A DNA stretch of 56,152 nt, taken from the NCBI GenBank assembly GCA_021845725.1, contig JAJZVL010000013.1:1-56152 (forward strand). Direction: 5' to 3'. Under the pieces are notes generated by a model. That model saw nothing but the letters and a program-made list of their open reading frames with translations, had not been told where the DNA came from and ran no database searches. A program made the position numbers and the translations under genes. Below are positions 8,902-54,016 of this stretch, piece after piece. Within the stretch, counting starts at the first letter, position 1. Each line of letters starts with the position of its first letter. The DNA is from Actinomycetes bacterium (GTDB lineage Bacteria > Actinomycetota > Acidimicrobiia > Acidimicrobiales > RAAP-2).

Positions 8902-8947
8902 ATCCCTGCCCAGGGCGCTACCGCATCCCTGCCCAGGGCGCTACCGC
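8902..8947. repeat. 23-bp tandem duplication covering the stop codon of the kinase-aminotransferase gene
   Basis: Two perfect adjacent copies, 8902-8924 and 8925-8947. The second copy contains the last codons and stop (8941-8943) of the minus-strand gene, so the first copy is a duplicate of that gene end placed just after it. Confidence 0.8.
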
Positions 8948-18555: not shown

Positions 18556-18575
18556 TCGTGATAATGGTGCTCGGC

Positions 18576-18680
18576 GGCCGGCGGGGAGCGTGTCGGCGCG
18601 GCCGGCGGGGAGCGTGTCGGCGCGGCCGGCGGGGAGCGTGTCGGCGCGGCCGGCGGGGAGCGTGTCGGCGCGGCCGGCGC
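18576..18680. repeat. 24-bp minisatellite, four perfect copies plus a 9-bp fragment
   Basis: Perfect copies start at 18576, 18600, 18624 and 18648. They fill the gap between the furA promoter and the ribosome site of the next plus-strand gene. They can be read as in-frame peptides on both strands, which is a consequence of the 24-bp period and not evidence of translation. Confidence 0.9.
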
Positions 18681-31543: not shown

Positions 31544-31699
31544 GCTCGGGTCGGGGGAATCCCAGGCGAGGGGACGTGCAGCGAGCAGGACCGCAGTCCG
31601 GTAGTACGGGAGTCGATGGGGCTTGAGCGGAGAGACCGTCTCACGGGGCCGTGTTGCGGCAGGGGGGGGTCAGGCCGATCCAGTCCAGGGAGACGAGCG

Positions 31700-33946
31700 A
31701 TGGCCTTAGCGCCGACCGATGTCGCGAGCATCGACGAGACCACCGCGATCCGACTCGTTATCGCGCACCGCCGCGGTGACCGCGAGGCGTTCGCCGAGAT
31801 CGTCCGGTCCCACTACCCCTCGCTGCTCGCCACTGCCCGCCATCGGCTGGGGAACGTCGAGGACGCGAAGGACGCCGTCCAAGAGACCTTGCTGCGTGCA
31901 CTGCTCGCGCTGGACCACTTCGGGGACACCGGCGATTGGCGCCTCGCGGCCTGGTTGAACACCATCCTCCTCCACGTCTGTGTGGACATCCCGGCACGGC
32001 GCAAGCGAACCTCTCCACTCACCGACTGGGTGATCGAGAACCACCCTGACTCGAGGGAGTCGGAGGCCTCTGATCATGTGGCGCTCGCTGCTGTGCAACG
32101 GGCGATCAGTGAGCTTCCCGAGGCGCAGCGCCGGGCCTTCGAGCTCCGCCTGGTCGACGGTCGGCCCTACGAGGAGGTTGCCGGCGCGCTCGGGATCAGC
32201 GAGGTCAATGCGAGGGCGCGTGTACGCCGAGCCCGCGCCGCCTTGCGGCATGCGCTCGAGTCCACGGGAGCGGTCAAGGGAGTGTTGGCTGCGATCCCTC
32301 TCGCGCTTGGCGTTCCGCTCCGGAGCGCGTTGCGCCGCATCGTTGCTTCTGCCGGGCACCCCGCTCGCGTCGCCGGCTCGCAGGCACTCGTTTCGGGCGC
32401 TGCCACGGTCGGCTCGCCGGGTACCTCGGCCATCGCTGGAACGCCTATCGAGACGAGCCTCCAGGTGATCACCCAGGTCTCGTCGACGTCGCTAGGACAG
32501 GCCATCGTCGCCTCTGTGGCCAGCGCGCCGGCGAAGGGCTCGGTCGTGCTCGGGATCGTCGCCAGCCTGGCCACGGCGGGCGGGTTGTCGGCTCCGGCGG
32601 CGCTGTCTGGCACGACACCCCCCGTGGCAGCCTCCTCCGTGCGGGTGGCGCGTACGGCTACAGCGCCCGGGTCGACACCGGCCGCGACCGTGACAGCGAC
32701 CTCCTCCTCCTCCTCCTCCTCCTGGTCGTCGTCGTCGTCCGATGCGCCGGGCGGCTCGGCGACCATGGGCGCCGCAGCTGCACCGAGCGCGACGCCGGCC
32801 AGGCACTCACGAGGCGCTCCCGCCTGGGTGACACTCGCCGCCTCCGCCGTCGCCTACCGCTTTCGGGCGCCGAGCGGCTCCTCGGCGGTGAGCTGGCTTC
32901 CCGCCGCTTCGAGCGATGGCGCGACCACCTCGTCCACGACCTCCACCGCTCCGGCCTCCGCCGCGACGGCTCCGCCGGTCACCGGGTCGGTGCCCGCCAC
33001 GACGTCTCCGCAGGGTGCGGCCTCGACCAGCGCGGCCTCGACCAGCGCGGCCTCGACCAGCGCGGCCTCGACCAGCGCGGCCTCGACCAGCGCGGCCTCG
33101 ACCAGCGCGGCCTCGACAAGCAGCGCTGCCAACTCGCCGCCGGCGTCCTCTGCAGGGGCATTCCTTGGAAGCACCGTCTCGCTGCCGGTCGGGACGTGCA
33201 CGGGCGTCACAGGGTTCCCCGGCGTGACGGCGCCAGCCTCCGTGCCGCCGCTCACGTCTTCGGTGCTGGACGCCATCGTGAGCACTGGGTCGCTGGAGCT
33301 CGCCACGGGCGGGGGCGCTCCGGCTTTCGGCGGCACAGCACTCGTCAAGGCGACGTCGGGGTCGACAGCACCTGTCCGCGTGAAGGTTGGGACGTGCTTG
33401 GCAGAAGGTGGGTCCATCCTCGCCGTGGACATGACCGGCACCACAGGCGATGCAGTCCAACTTGTCGGCTCGCTGGTGGCGCAGCCCTTCGCGATGACCA
33501 CAGGGAGCGACGCTTACCTCTTCCGAGGGAACGTCGTTCAGGTCGCCGGGGCGGCTCGGCCGGGCGGCGCGCTCCCGTGGGGGCTTCCGCAGGGGTTCGT
33601 CGCTGAGGTGCAGGTCCGGCAGGTGGCCAAGACGGGGTCGCTCACCGTCGTCTTCCTGCACGCGCAGGGCGAGGCGTCCGGCGACTCAGCGACACCCGGA
33701 GCGGCGGGAACCACACGCGGAACCACACCCGCCACCGGGACTGCGGCGGTGGACCCCGCTGTGTCCCCGACAGCGAGCCCGTCGGCGAGCACCTCGCGGT
33801 CCGTGTCGACCACGACGTCATCGACGACACCGCGTACATCGAGCCCAGGGAGCACCACACCGTCGAGCTCGACCAGCACCACACCGTCGAGCTCGACCAG
33901 CACCACACCGTCGAGCGCTTCAGGGACGGAGGCGAGCTCCTCTTAG
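31700..33946 (+). CDS. ECF sigma factor with long C-terminal membrane and extracytoplasmic extension
   Basis: A 748-residue protein, about four times the length of a normal ECF sigma factor. Region 2 is near residues 25-95 (FAEIVRSHYPSLLATARHRL, DAKDAVQETLLRAL) and region 4 near 130-185 (LPEAQRRAFELRLVDGRPYE, ISEVNARARVRRARAAL). After it come hydrophobic segments at about 193-207 and 278-300 (the best membrane candidate), a Ser/Thr/Ala-rich linker of about 170 residues with a 15-bp coding repeat, a compact domain at about 486-660 with two cysteines (about 500 and 566), and a Ser/Thr-rich tail. No anti-sigma gene is adjacent. It may be a membrane-held sigma factor released by a signal outside. 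ATG 31700 has an AGGGAGA ribosome site. Confidence 0.85.
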   Translation: MALAPTDVASIDETTAIRLVIAHRRGDREAFAEIVRSHYPSLLATARHRLGNVEDAKDAVQETLLRALLALDHFGDTGDWRLAAWLNTILLHVCVDIPARRKRTSPLTDWVIENHPDSRESEASDHVALAAVQRAISELPEAQRRAFELRLVDGRPYEEVAGALGISEVNARARVRRARAALRHALESTGAVKGVLAAIPLALGVPLRSALRRIVASAGHPARVAGSQALVSGAATVGSPGTSAIAGTPIETSLQVITQVSSTSLGQAIVASVASAPAKGSVVLGIVASLATAGGLSAPAALSGTTPPVAASSVRVARTATAPGSTPAATVTATSSSSSSSWSSSSSDAPGGSATMGAAAAPSATPARHSRGAPAWVTLAASAVAYRFRAPSGSSAVSWLPAASSDGATTSSTTSTAPASAATAPPVTGSVPATTSPQGAASTSAASTSAASTSAASTSAASTSAASTSAASTSSAANSPPASSAGAFLGSTVSLPVGTCTGVTGFPGVTAPASVPPLTSSVLDAIVSTGSLELATGGGAPAFGGTALVKATSGSTAPVRVKVGTCLAEGGSILAVDMTGTTGDAVQLVGSLVAQPFAMTTGSDAYLFRGNVVQVAGAARPGGALPWGLPQGFVAEVQVRQVAKTGSLTVVFLHAQGEASGDSATPGAAGTTRGTTPATGTAAVDPAVSPTASPSASTSRSVSTTTSSTTPRTSSPGSTTPSSSTSTTPSSSTSTTPSSASGTEASSS
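33017..33121 (+). repeat. 15-bp minisatellite, seven copies, in the sigma factor linker
   Basis: Unit GCGGCCTCGACCAGC (Ala-Ala-Ser-Thr-Ser) repeats perfectly six times; the seventh copy has one change. Copy-number change would lengthen or shorten the linker without a frameshift. Confidence 0.9.
33854..33916 (+). repeat. 24-bp repeat, two copies plus 15 bp, in the sigma factor C-terminal tail
   Basis: Copies at 33854-33877 and 33878-33901 are perfect; 33902-33916 is a partial third. It encodes the Ser/Thr/Pro-rich end of the protein. Confidence 0.8.
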
Positions 33947-35903: not shown

Positions 35904-37334
35904 GTGGCCCTCGGACGTACGCGGCGCCGACGCGCGGCGCGGCCATTCGCACCTGGCAGGGTCGCAGGTCTCCCGCTGCTGGGGCGCCTCGCAGGGTGTG
36001 CGATCGCCGGTGTCGTCGCTGCGCTACTCGTGCAGGCGGCAGGGATGCTTGTCGCGTTGCCCGCTGCGGGCGCCAGCCTTCCGTCGCAGCAGGCCAGAGC
36101 CGATCAGCTCGCTCAGCAGATCGTCGCGCAGGGCGCGGCGGTGCAGCGGGCGGTCGTCCAGCAGGATGCGGCGCAGGCCAGGCTCACCAGCCTGGATGGG
36201 CAGCTCGCAGCGACCGGAGCCCGGCTCCTGAGAGACCGCCGCGCGGATACCCGAGCGGCGCGGACCCTGCGTCGGCTCGTCGTCCAGGCGTACATGACGG
36301 GGATCGGGTCAGCCAGCCTTCCCACGATCTTCGATGCCGGGAACGACGCCGCAGTTCTGGCGCGCGAGTACTCCGGAGTGGCGGCTGGCGGACTACAGCA
36401 GGCCATCAGTGCGTTCCGGGCCGCCGAGCAGCGGACCGAGATCACCGTCGCTGCTCTCCGGTCCCAGCGTGCGCAGGCCTCGGCGGCGTTGGCGCGTCTG
36501 ACGGCCGCACGGCAGAGCGCCCAGGCCTCCCTCGCCCAGGACGTCGTCCTGCTCGCCCAGGCCAAAGGAGACATCGCGGCGCTCCAGGCCGCAGCGGCGG
36601 AGCAGGCGCGTCAGGCGTCCGCCCAGGAGGCGGCACTGGCACAGGAGGAGGCCGCGCAGGCAGCACGGCAGAAGCCCCTCCTCCAGGCACCCCAGCCGAC
36701 GCCGCAGCCCACCACACCGCAGCCCACCACACCGCAGCCCACCACACCGCAGCCGGCCGTGCTGCCGGTTGCCCAGGCGGCGCCGCAGCCCACACCCCAG
36801 CCGGCTGTCCAGACGCAGACGATCCCGACCGCGGCCGTGCGGCCCGGGCCCGGCGGCTACGTCGACCCGCTGCGCGCGATCGCAGGCCTCTCCCCGGAGC
36901 GCATCGACCAGGGTGTCGACTACAGCGGCTACGGGCCGATCTACCCCATCGGGGACGGCGTGGTGCTCAACACCGTGAACACAGGCTGGCCGGGCGGGAC
37001 GTTCATCACGTACCGCCTCACTGATGGCCCGGCCGCGGGGCTGGTCGTCTACGCGGCGGAGGACATCCAGCCATCTGTGCAGGTCGGCGAGCAGGTCTCG
37101 CCGACAACGGTGCTCGGGACGATGTACGAGGGGCCCGATGGCATCGAGACCGGCTGGGCGGACTCCACAGGCAACGGCGCGACCATGGCCTACGTGGCGG
37201 GCCAATTCACCGGCGCGAACGCCACTGCTTACGGTGCCAACTTCTCGCAGCTGCTGGCCGCGCTCGGCGCGCCGCCAGGGGTGCCCAACGGGACACCGGC
37301 CGGTTCGCTGCCCTCGAACTGGCCGACCTGGTAG
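35904..37334 (+). CDS. secreted coiled-coil protein with degenerate M23-like C-terminal domain
   Basis: A 476-residue exported protein. A basic N-terminus and hydrophobic stretch (LAGCAIAGVVAALLVQAAGMLVALPAAGA) form a long signal peptide or anchor. Residues about 58-255 are Ala/Gln-rich coiled coil like the NlpC/M23-associated cell-wall amidase activators. A Pro/Thr/Gln repeat linker follows. Residues about 310-425 resemble lysostaphin-type M23 folds (RIDQGVDYSGYGPIYPIGDG, YAAEDIQPSVQVGEQVSP), but the zinc-binding His-x(n)-Asp and HxH residues are not where they should be, so it is probably not catalytic. It may activate or position a cell-wall hydrolase. Confidence 0.72.
   Translation: MALGRTRRRRAARPFAPGRVAGLPLLGRLAGCAIAGVVAALLVQAAGMLVALPAAGASLPSQQARADQLAQQIVAQGAAVQRAVVQQDAAQARLTSLDGQLAATGARLLRDRRADTRAARTLRRLVVQAYMTGIGSASLPTIFDAGNDAAVLAREYSGVAAGGLQQAISAFRAAEQRTEITVAALRSQRAQASAALARLTAARQSAQASLAQDVVLLAQAKGDIAALQAAAAEQARQASAQEAALAQEEAAQAARQKPLLQAPQPTPQPTTPQPTTPQPTTPQPAVLPVAQAAPQPTPQPAVQTQTIPTAAVRPGPGGYVDPLRAIAGLSPERIDQGVDYSGYGPIYPIGDGVVLNTVNTGWPGGTFITYRLTDGPAAGLVVYAAEDIQPSVQVGEQVSPTTVLGTMYEGPDGIETGWADSTGNGATMAYVAGQFTGANATAYGANFSQLLAALGAPPGVPNGTPAGSLPSNWPTW
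36705..36749 (+). repeat. 15-bp unit CAGCCCACCACACCG, three perfect copies
   Basis: It encodes Gln-Pro-Thr-Thr-Pro in the linker between coiled coil and C-terminal domain of the secreted protein. Confidence 0.85.
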
Positions 37335-40610: not shown

Positions 40611-40658
40611 GGTCGCCCGGCTCCGAGGTCGCCCGGCTCCGAGGTCGCCCGGCTCCGA
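40611..40658. repeat. 16-bp unit GGTCGCCCGGCTCCGA, three perfect copies
   Basis: The array starts 4 bp after the ileS stop and ends 11 bp before the -10 box of the 36-residue membrane peptide gene, in the place where its -35 region would be. Confidence 0.9.
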
Positions 40659-43535: not shown

Positions 43536-47056
<3,521 letters not shown>

Positions 47057-51916: not shown

Positions 51917-54016
51917 ATGCCCATCGTCTCCGAACCCCTCGGCCGGGTACTGGGGAACCGCTACCGGCTCGTGGCGGCCCTTGGCTCCGGCGCGTCGGCC
52001 CATGTCTTCCTCGGCGAGGACATGGTGCTCCAGCGGCGCGTCGCCGTGAAGGTCCTCCAACCGGCTCTCGCCCATGACGACGCCTTCCTGCGCCGCTTCC
52101 GGGCGGAGGCACGTTCGGTAGCGGCACTGAACCACCCCCACGTCCTTCGCGTGTTCGACTGGGGGGAAGGGGAGGACGGTCCGTACCTGGTCCTCGAGTA
52201 CCTCGAGGGTGGGAGCCTGCTCGACATGCTGGCAGCTGGTCGCAGGCTCTCTGCCGGGCAGGCCGCCCGCGTCGGGGCCCAGGCCGCCGACGGCCTCGCC
52301 TACGCCCACGCACGCGGGATCATCCATCGTGACGTGAAGCCGGCCAACATCCTCTTCGACGAGGACGGCCGGGTGCGGGTCGCGGACTTCGGCGTGGCGC
52401 GGGCGCTGTCGAGCGCGTCGACGACCGACCCGGGCACGATGCTCGGGACCGCCCGCTACGCCTCGCCCGAGCAGGCCCAGGGCATGCAGCTCGACGGGCG
52501 GTCGGACGTGTACTCGCTCGGGCTGGTCCTCTACGAGGCGGTCACCGGAACGGTGCCGTTCGCCCGGGAGACGCCCCACGCGACGCTCCAGGCCCGGATC
52601 GGCGAGCCTGTGCCGAAGGATCCGGCCCTCGGCCCCCTCGAGCCCGAGCTCAGCGCTGCGTGTGCTCCAGAGGAGAAGGACCGCCCGGACGCGGCACAGC
52701 TCGCCCGACGGCTCGGAGATCTCGCCGACGAGCTCAGCCCCTTCGATCCGCTGCCCCTGGTCCGCCGCGCCCCGCTCGAGGGCACGGAGCCCGGCGCCAC
52801 GCAGGTCGATCTGCCCATCGCCGCCCATGAGGGGGACGTCACGCGTGTGGGGACGCCCGCCGTCGTCGCGGACCTCGGTGTCACGGGTGTGCTCGGCGCG
52901 ACGCGGCTCGGATCGGCTGCGAGCGGCGGGCTGGTCGACACCGGTGAGCCGACCGCGACAATCGGTCTCGGCAGTGGGGTGCCACCCGTCGGCGCGTACG
53001 GCATGCGCGGGCACCGTAGGCGGTGGCCTTGGGTGCTCGCGGTGCTCGTCGTCGTGGCGGCCATCCTCGCCGCAGGCGGCGTCTATGCCGTGAAGAACCA
53101 TCTGTTCGCGCCTAGCCACCTCGTGCCGTCGGTGGTCGGGGACACACTCGCGACCGCTCGCAGGGTGCTGCGCGCGGACCACTTCCACGTGCAGCTCCAG
53201 CCGGGTGTCACGTCGACCAAGGTGGCACCGGGCACGGTTGCCCGGGAGGACCCGAGACCGGGCACGTCGCTCAAGGAGGGAAGCACCGTGCAGCTCGTGC
53301 CCTCCTCGGGGGTGCCCTCGGTCACGGTGCCGTCGTTGACGGGGGGTCTCGATTGCACAGTGGCGACCCGGTTGCTCTCAGGCGCGCACTTGACGGCGAG
53401 CTGCCCCGCGGCGAGCGCGTATTCGAGGACAGTGCCCAACGGGGACGTGATCAGCTGGTCGTACGACGGAAAGACCGATCCTGTGACGGCACCGTACGGG
53501 TCGAAGATCCTCGTCACGGTGTCCGAGGGAAAGCCCCCGGTCAAGATCCCGTCGTTCGCCGGTGGGACGTACACACAGGCGGCCGCCACCTTGAGCGCAG
53601 ACGGTCTCTCGGTGACCGAGGTGCAGGCGTACTCGACAACCGTGCCGAACGGGGAGGTGATCGCGACGACACCCGGCACCGGGGCGACAGCGCCCGTCGG
53701 CTCGCACGTCACCGTGAGCGTCTCCAAGGGCCCCCGCGCGGTGCCGGTGCCCACAGTGATCGGCGACACGGTGACCAAGGCGACCGCGGCGGTCCAGGCC
53801 GCCGGCCTCACGGTCGGCGCGGTGTACGGACCGGGGACAGGGGTGGTCTTCACGACCAACCCTCTCGCCGGGCAGCAGGTGAAGGTCGGGACTGCGGTCG
53901 ACCTGTACAGCGAGCCCCCGCCCTCGACAGGCAACCAGCCGAAGCCGGGGTCGTCGACGACGTCGGGCACCACGGCGGGGACGACCACGTCTACGACGTC
54001 CCCCGCAGGGGGCTAG
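51917..54016 (+). CDS. PASTA-domain serine/threonine protein kinase, PknB-like
   Basis: A 699-residue receptor kinase. The kinase domain occupies about residues 14-270: glycine loop LGSGASAHVFLG, VAVKVLQ lysine, catalytic IIHRDVKPANIL, DFG in VADFGVARAL and ARYASPEQA. One membrane helix (WPWVLAVLVVVAAILAAGGVYAV) lies near 370-392. The outside part has about four PASTA repeats, which in PknB bind peptidoglycan fragments, then a Thr/Ser/Gly-rich tail. Its stop TAG shares the palindrome CTAG with the stop of the convergent flavoprotein gene. Confidence 0.93.
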   Translation: MPIVSEPLGRVLGNRYRLVAALGSGASAHVFLGEDMVLQRRVAVKVLQPALAHDDAFLRRFRAEARSVAALNHPHVLRVFDWGEGEDGPYLVLEYLEGGSLLDMLAAGRRLSAGQAARVGAQAADGLAYAHARGIIHRDVKPANILFDEDGRVRVADFGVARALSSASTTDPGTMLGTARYASPEQAQGMQLDGRSDVYSLGLVLYEAVTGTVPFARETPHATLQARIGEPVPKDPALGPLEPELSAACAPEEKDRPDAAQLARRLGDLADELSPFDPLPLVRRAPLEGTEPGATQVDLPIAAHEGDVTRVGTPAVVADLGVTGVLGATRLGSAASGGLVDTGEPTATIGLGSGVPPVGAYGMRGHRRRWPWVLAVLVVVAAILAAGGVYAVKNHLFAPSHLVPSVVGDTLATARRVLRADHFHVQLQPGVTSTKVAPGTVAREDPRPGTSLKEGSTVQLVPSSGVPSVTVPSLTGGLDCTVATRLLSGAHLTASCPAASAYSRTVPNGDVISWSYDGKTDPVTAPYGSKILVTVSEGKPPVKIPSFAGGTYTQAAATLSADGLSVTEVQAYSTTVPNGEVIATTPGTGATAPVGSHVTVSVSKGPRAVPVPTVIGDTVTKATAAVQAAGLTVGAVYGPGTGVVFTTNPLAGQQVKVGTAVDLYSEPPPSTGNQPKPGSSTTSGTTAGTTTSTTSPAGG

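Follow-up and report, generated by a model that had tools for sequence, protein, structure and literature searches.

The window, the 56,152-nucleotide stretch of DNA analysed here, encodes an ECF sigma factor that is fused in a single frame to a long C-terminal extension, and this fusion is real, conserved, and bound to one lineage. Computation showed that the frame is conserved among relatives, that selection has acted on the sigma domain, on a hydrophobic segment at residues 280-302, and on a C-terminal domain with a predicted barrel fold, and that the chain contains no recognisable anti-sigma domain. The protein may sense a signal outside the cell and switch on genes as a single protein. 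The coordinates of its features are collected in Table 1.

Table 1 Features of the sigma-fusion gene and its product, with positions in the window.
Feature	Position	Strand	Basis
Entire gene: ECF sigma factor of 748 aa with C-terminal extension	31700..33946	+	Frame reading, orthologues
Conserved ribosome-binding block GGAGACGAGCG directly 5' of the ATG	31689..31699	+	Upstream alignment
Sigma region 2 (aa 34-103)	31799..32008	+	Pfam PF04542
Sigma region 4 (aa 130-182)	32087..32245	+	Pfam PF08281
First hydrophobic Arg-bearing stretch (aa 191-213), with Pro200	32270..32338	+	Alignment, model, insertion energy
Candidate membrane or internal signal segment (aa 280-302)	32537..32605	+	Hydropathy, charge, conservation
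Trp box in linker (aa 370-392, APAWVTLAA)	32807..32875	+	Motif by eye, dN/dS
15-bp tandem repeat in linker, coding A-A-S-T-S	33017..33121	+	Repeat search
Two-cysteine beta-barrel domain (aa 490-661; Cys500, Cys566)	33167..33682	+	Structure prediction, alignment
Ser/Thr-rich tail	33683..33943	+	Repeat search, dN/dS

The gene is a single frame of 748 codons that opens with ATG and closes with one stop. Position 31700, rather than an alternative in-frame ATG upstream at 31616, is likely to be the true start, because nine orthologues share MALAP as their common N-terminal start and because GGAGACGANC is conserved ahead of the ATG in all nine of the upstream regions that were aligned. No ECF promoter pair was recognised by eye in this upstream alignment of nine genus members. 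Codon 3 (31706-31708) is TTA in the window and three orthologues and CTA in the other six of the ten same-genus members, and these two codons together account for 58 of the 10,767 leucine codons (six of them TTA) in 280 genes called by script. That the A at the third position of codon 3 is kept may reflect a constraint on the RNA where the gene begins, or TTA-linked translational control, which is known from bldA of Streptomyces. Successive versions of our codon-usage gene-calling script either missed the sigma-fusion gene or called only its second half, a miscall that we put down to its repeat-rich composition.

The genes on either side encode a PIG-L protein and a zinc-dehydrogenase-like protein, both on the opposite strand, which rules out an adjacent anti-sigma gene in the window and agrees with the original prediction on this point. 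When the window was compared with 28 loci, with those of G001 and G011 set aside, the PIG-L gene was found to adjoin the sigma gene in G012, G004, G008, G006, and G002, while the dehydrogenase gene adjoins it in G012 and G004 and sits beyond PIG-L in G006. No gene of the window had a match in G003 or in the compared loci outside the genus. The neighbouring genes therefore offer no regulatory clue.

With regions 2 and 4 contained in about 190 residues, the protein is an ECF sigma factor (group 4 sigma-70). Both regions had been predicted at the N terminus, and Pfam placed them there as Sigma70_r2 (residues 34-103, E = 7e-12) and Sigma70_r4_2 (residues 130-182, E = 2e-15), each over its cut-off, with TIGR02937 matching at 79.5 bits against a cut-off of 42.9. 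In an AlphaFold2 model residues 6-188 are helical and confidently placed except for the inter-domain linker. Beyond residue 190 no Pfam family matched at E values up to 1, and NCBIfam returned no family for residues 196-748 searched alone. Neither zf-HC2 nor SnoaL matched the protein at E values up to 1, no TPR family matched it, and SnoaL is absent from the three families listed for 12 barrel-bearing members. The only cysteines of the whole protein are Cys94, in the sigma part, and residues 500 and 566. The zf-HC2 family occurs at four places in the genome from which the window derives, none of them on the window's contig (C148). At locus L149 of the same genome (contig C93), an ECF factor is fused to zf-HC2 and ends soon after it, with no membrane segment visible by eye.

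A search of 41 genomes, including that of the window, with residues 1-317 as the query identified an orthologue in nine of the 12 other genomes of the same genus, and G007, G009, and G010 gave weak ECF matches only. The same-genus orthologues keep the frame at 54-95% identity and under purifying selection, which rules out a shadow frame or chance as the origin of the long reading frame. The distribution of the C-terminal domain was followed by a profile scan of overlapping genome samples in which the window's own genome is counted. The domain was detected in 18 of 150 genomes of the family, in 7 of 198 genomes of the order, in 3 of 395 genomes of the class (all three within the same order), and in 1 of 396 genomes of the phylum, with absence from the class and phylum samples constituting weak evidence because only up to nine candidates per genome were scored there. 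The family and order samples together yielded 25 places with the domain, spread over six families that all belong to one order, and no relative of the barrel was found in viral contigs. The frame is not broken after region 4 in the orthologues: at 23 of the 25 places (the window and 22 others) the C-terminal domain shares one frame with the sigma part, and the exceptions are a contig that begins inside the gene (G011:C277) and a weak fragment (G024:C14, E = 2.4e-4) in a 132-residue frame. The sigma frames of G006, G011, and the second copy in G037 run off their contigs ahead of the barrel. Seven near relatives from a named collection proved to be MAGs, with the labels Actinomycetes (five), Acidimicrobiales (one), and Acidimicrobiaceae (one). 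Among plasmids, 79 records matched the query, none of them over more than 80% of its length, and the ten best matches cover 19-22% of the query, corresponding to the sigma part. In a tree of 45 sigma domains, which is rooted only at its midpoint and includes some long branches, a branch with 100/100 support divides the 25 members of the family from 18 fused paralogues found within that order, and each side also includes one other ECF factor of the window's genome, placed on a very long branch.

Selection along the protein was estimated with our own Nei-Gojobori script by comparing the window with its two nearest orthologues, G012 and G004, and with the more distant G008 and G001. In that order, dN/dS was 0.04, 0.12, 0.17, and 0.29 for the sigma domain and 0.14, 0.18, 0.22, and 0.24 for the barrel. 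Residues 280-302 gave a dN/dS of 0 against both G012 and G004, with an amino-acid change in none of the 23 codons at dS values of 0.34 and 0.48, and 0.19 and 0.11 against G008 and G001. The two linkers lie at 0.43-0.49 against G012 and G004; residues 188-279, at 0.31-0.41 in the four comparisons, fare barely better than the linkers; and the tail reaches 1.05 against G012 and 0.56 against G004 (0.40-0.57 over the three comparisons other than that with G012). This pattern indicates that the sigma domain, residues 280-302, and the barrel are kept, and that they are separated by filler of free length. The drift of the linkers and tail is what would be expected if the tail were degenerate or passive and the sigma part acted alone. 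However, that explanation is very improbable given the low dN/dS of both the barrel and residues 280-302 in all four comparisons and the retention of the barrel in six families.

Hydrophobic segments had been predicted after the sigma part, and hydropathy peaks do occur there, at about residues 189-209 and 268-302. In the first of these, Pro200 is invariant in all 25 members, and AlphaFold2 places a low-confidence helix at residues 205-218 of the Arg-bearing stretch. Our guess is that the first stretch (residues 191-213) may form an amphipathic helix that lies close to the membrane or contacts the sigma part. The second peak contains residues 280-302, and in all 25 members this site has the highest hydropathy of the interval that separates region 4 from the linker. 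Its mean KD value is at least 1.6 in 24 of them, and in the exception, G245, the segment scores 1.45 against 1.76 for a more hydrophobic 19-mer within the barrel of that protein. Only two of the 496 residues in alignment columns 282-301 are charged, and Lys or Arg stands immediately N-terminal to the segment in 24 of the 25 members as aligned.

Insertion energies were calculated on a biological insertion scale. For the window, residues 280-302 gave +2.6 kcal/mol, and both the first stretch (+1.99) and the best segment of the sigma domain (+1.68) scored better than this. Across the 25 members the best post-sigma segment ranges from +1.05 to +2.31, with a median of +1.77, and in 11 members, including the window, it is the first stretch and not residues 280-302. 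Eight membrane proteins of the same genome, used as a control, gave -1.2 to -4.9. At 51917-54016 the window encodes a Ser/Thr kinase that combines PASTA repeats with a strong membrane segment, and this kinase was used as a control. As the median best segment of 267 proteins from the genome is +2.23, the energy of residues 280-302 fails to separate the protein from soluble ones. The AlphaFold2 run on residues 1-312 (25 alignment rows, pTM 0.38) left residues 219-312 at pLDDT below 50 and placed no helix at 280-300. The membrane segment is therefore weaker than the original prediction assumed: a conserved and uncharged hydropathy peak is present in all 25 members, but its insertion energy is poor and the model lacks the helix. 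Insertion of residues 280-302 into the membrane is plausible from hydropathy and conservation, but the energy and the model speak against it.

The energies of residues 280-302 resemble those of signal-peptide-like N termini more closely than those of anchors, with four such N termini of the genome, selected by eye among 17 listed, giving +0.3, +1.2, +1.5, and +2.2. The segment could thus be an internal signal peptide, with signal peptidase cutting at about residues 298-302, either always or on a signal, so that the one gene would yield a sigma factor ending in a short hydrophobic tail, plus a separate, secreted barrel protein. Its Lys-Gly-Ser, hydrophobic core, and SAPA do have the look of a signal peptide with its h- and c-regions, the four N termini are similarly poor by energy, and there is a precedent in the anti-sigma factor RsiP of Bacillus thuringiensis, for which signal peptidase is reported as the site-1 protease (PMC8844934). 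Nevertheless, the Ala-rich end of the segment is not retained outside the genus, where the G018 group has ASTVLL, and we consider processing of this kind improbable.

The compact two-cysteine domain and the Ser/Thr tail expected after the linker were both found. Structure prediction yielded a folded all-beta barrel (pLDDT 82, pTM 0.80), and its two cysteines, which would form a Cys500-Cys566 disulfide, are kept in 22 of 23 members. The barrel has no relative in Pfam or NCBIfam and no clear relative in the PDB, and none of the Foldseek matches listed has E ≤ 0.001. The nearest shapes, all short of that threshold, include a DUF3237 protein, cyclases of the AbyU/PloI4 type, and avidins. Several of these shapes bind small molecules, which would suit a wholly cytoplasmic one-component factor in which the barrel binds a small molecule and acts directly on the sigma domain, with the hydrophobic stretch as a sigma-docking segment. 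The SnoaL tail of ECF41, which acts on its sigma domain, provides a parallel, and the poor insertion energy and the lack of a modelled helix at 280-300 fit this arrangement as well. On the other hand, a Ser/Thr/Ala/Pro linker of such variable length with few charges would be odd for a cytoplasmic contact, most of the proteins with Ser/Thr-rich stretches in the sampled part of the genome look exported, and the arrangement accounts poorly for the two-cysteine signature and for Lys or Arg ahead of a nearly charge-free segment. On balance a cytoplasmic factor seems rather unlikely.

The linker is rich in Ser, Thr, Ala, and Pro, contains few charges, and varies from 59 to 373 residues across members. 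Part of it in the window is encoded by the 15-bp repeat that the original prediction had pointed out, with 7.0 copies matching at 98%, and a 24-bp repeat of 2.8 copies (33851-33916) codes for part of the tail. Within the linker, a Trp box was recognised by eye in 24 of the 25 members, at 47-270 residues past the sigma/segment block and 10-153 residues ahead of the barrel where linkers are complete. The G037 member is without the Trp box and without both barrel cysteines. Over its 23 codons the box has a dN/dS of 0.06 against G012, 0.05 against G004, 0.33 against G008, and 0.56 against G001, the values for the two more distant comparisons being unreliable because the surrounding linker aligns poorly. 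A sequence kept amid a drifting linker suggests a candidate docking or cutting site, and the box is the most useful mechanistic lead that the protein offers. We know of no precedent for a Trp box in such a linker.

Ser/Thr-rich stretches were surveyed among 280 script-called genes in 424,691 bases of the same genome, by selecting products with an 80-residue stretch in which Ser and Thr make up 30% or more and charged residues 6% or less. Seven of the 280 products passed, among them the sigma fusion itself, as a partial call. Two of the remaining six are a penicillin-binding protein and a CWB2 cell-wall-binding protein, and a third appears by eye to begin with a signal peptide; the rest comprise a 317-residue protein whose gene overlaps another ECF gene, a 3,928-residue protein, and one product that is probably a false call. 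The overlapping pair (L126:499-2015, contig C79) consists of an ECF gene followed by a gene whose product joins a hydrophobic segment of small residues (+1.28) to a Ser/Thr tail, so that the pair looks like the fusion protein split into two halves. The 317-residue protein matches no Pfam family and could be an anti-sigma factor of an unrecognised type.

A second fused ECF family exists in the same order, with 18 members picked from the matches to residues 1-317 (for example, G038:C15 and G016:C24). Like the family described here, its members follow the sigma part with a stretch that bears Arg, then a hydrophobic segment of small residues, and then a tail, but they lie on the opposite side of the midpoint-rooted tree (100/100), and no barrel was seen in them. 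In many of these paralogues the tail is rich in Ser, Thr, Ala, Pro, and Gly, in some it is charged, and their best post-sigma energies are also poor, at +0.09 to +2.81. The G038:C15 protein (L143:1157-3082) has a better segment (+0.09), followed by BNR repeats, for which PF02012 scores 33.1 bits against a cut-off of 27 and BNR_2 falls under its cut-off. BNR domains usually lie outside the cytoplasm. Together, the Ser/Thr stalks, the cysteine pair, and this BNR-bearing paralogue favour export, and the tail and barrel are probably outside the cytoplasm.

We propose that the protein is a one-protein signalling device that works by tethering and release through regulated proteolysis, a model to which we give about an even chance. 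It keeps to the outline of the original prediction, whose membrane tether and release by cleavage are plausible. The ECF sigma domain (residues 1-187) would sit in the cytoplasm, and residues 280-302 would act as a weak signal-anchor that threads the remainder of the chain across the membrane with the N terminus inside, so that the Ser/Thr/Ala stalk of variable length would hold the disulfide-bearing beta-barrel sensor (residues 490-661) outside. Without a signal, the sigma domain would be kept at the membrane and perhaps also masked by the Arg-bearing residues 191-218. A signal at the barrel would expose a protease site, possibly the Trp box, after which an RseP-type site-2 protease would free the sigma domain. 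The ligand, the protease, and the release step in this scheme are guesses. The genome does encode an M50 site-2 protease with a PDZ domain. As no anti-sigma domain was recognised in the chain, inhibition could come from tethering itself, from residues 191-218 with Pro200, or from an unlinked partner.

The original prediction noted that C-terminal fusions of ECF factors are known in actinobacteria, and the sections of the literature on ECF48, ECF52, and ECF53 bear this out, describing extensions that reach 400 residues and comprise a zinc-finger domain together with either a single membrane helix or a pair of them (PMC8999054). As far as those sections go, the protein resembles these groups in being an ECF factor of actinobacteria whose C-terminal extension is long, with a candidate membrane part and a proposed release by proteolysis. 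It differs from them in having neither zf-HC2 nor any cysteine between residues 94 and 500, whereas their zinc finger lies between the sigma part and the membrane. Because this defining zinc finger tested negative, we did not file the protein under any of the three groups. ECF52 includes SCO4117 of Streptomyces coelicolor, which has a zinc finger, a membrane region, a proline-rich stretch, and a carbohydrate-binding module, and for which release by an uncharacterised protease was suggested (PMC5826349). The two proteins share a low-complexity stretch and, if the barrel is exported, an outer domain, which is a carbohydrate-binding module in ECF52 and a beta-barrel of no recognised family here. 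In IutY of Pseudomonas putida (ECF243), a sigma factor is fused to a membrane-bound regulator and is freed by Prc and RseP, according to the same source on ECF groups (PMC8999054). The present protein likewise joins a sigma factor to a putative membrane-bound regulator, but IutY serves iron cell-surface signalling through a fused anti-sigma factor, a domain not recognised here. ECF41, ECF42, and ECF238 carry SnoaL, TPR, and Cys-rich tails, respectively, and like the present protein hold sigma factor and regulator in one chain with no separate anti-sigma factor, as outlined in that section (PMC8999054). Their tails are described there as soluble, in contrast to the arrangement proposed here, and neither SnoaL nor TPR was matched in our protein.

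If the barrel is outside, one protein would serve as sigma factor, anti-sigma factor, and sensor with no recognisable anti-sigma domain, whether tethering alone can keep a sigma factor idle would become testable, and the protein would offer a compact part for synthetic signalling. A more specific version is possible, if on the doubtful side: the family would be a lineage-specific ECF group without an anti-sigma domain, in which the sigma factor is idle only through docking by a marginal, signal-peptide-like anchor, and in which the exported barrel and the Trp box of the stalk decide cutting. The weakness of the anchor would then be a design point, as marginal insertion would make the segment easy to cut or let go, and the order would have two self-anchored sigma families with exchangeable outer domains (barrel and BNR). 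We found no description of this family, or of the two fused ECF families in one order, in open-licence literature as judged by titles and the starts of abstracts, and publication elsewhere is possible.

Two further observations concern the rest of the window. Positions 36030-37334 hold a frame of 434 residues with a hydrophobic N terminus and no Pfam family at E 0.001. Perfect short tandem repeats with periods of 15-24 bp occur at 18574-18679, 44471-44585, 8902-8947, 40611-40658, and 36702-36754.
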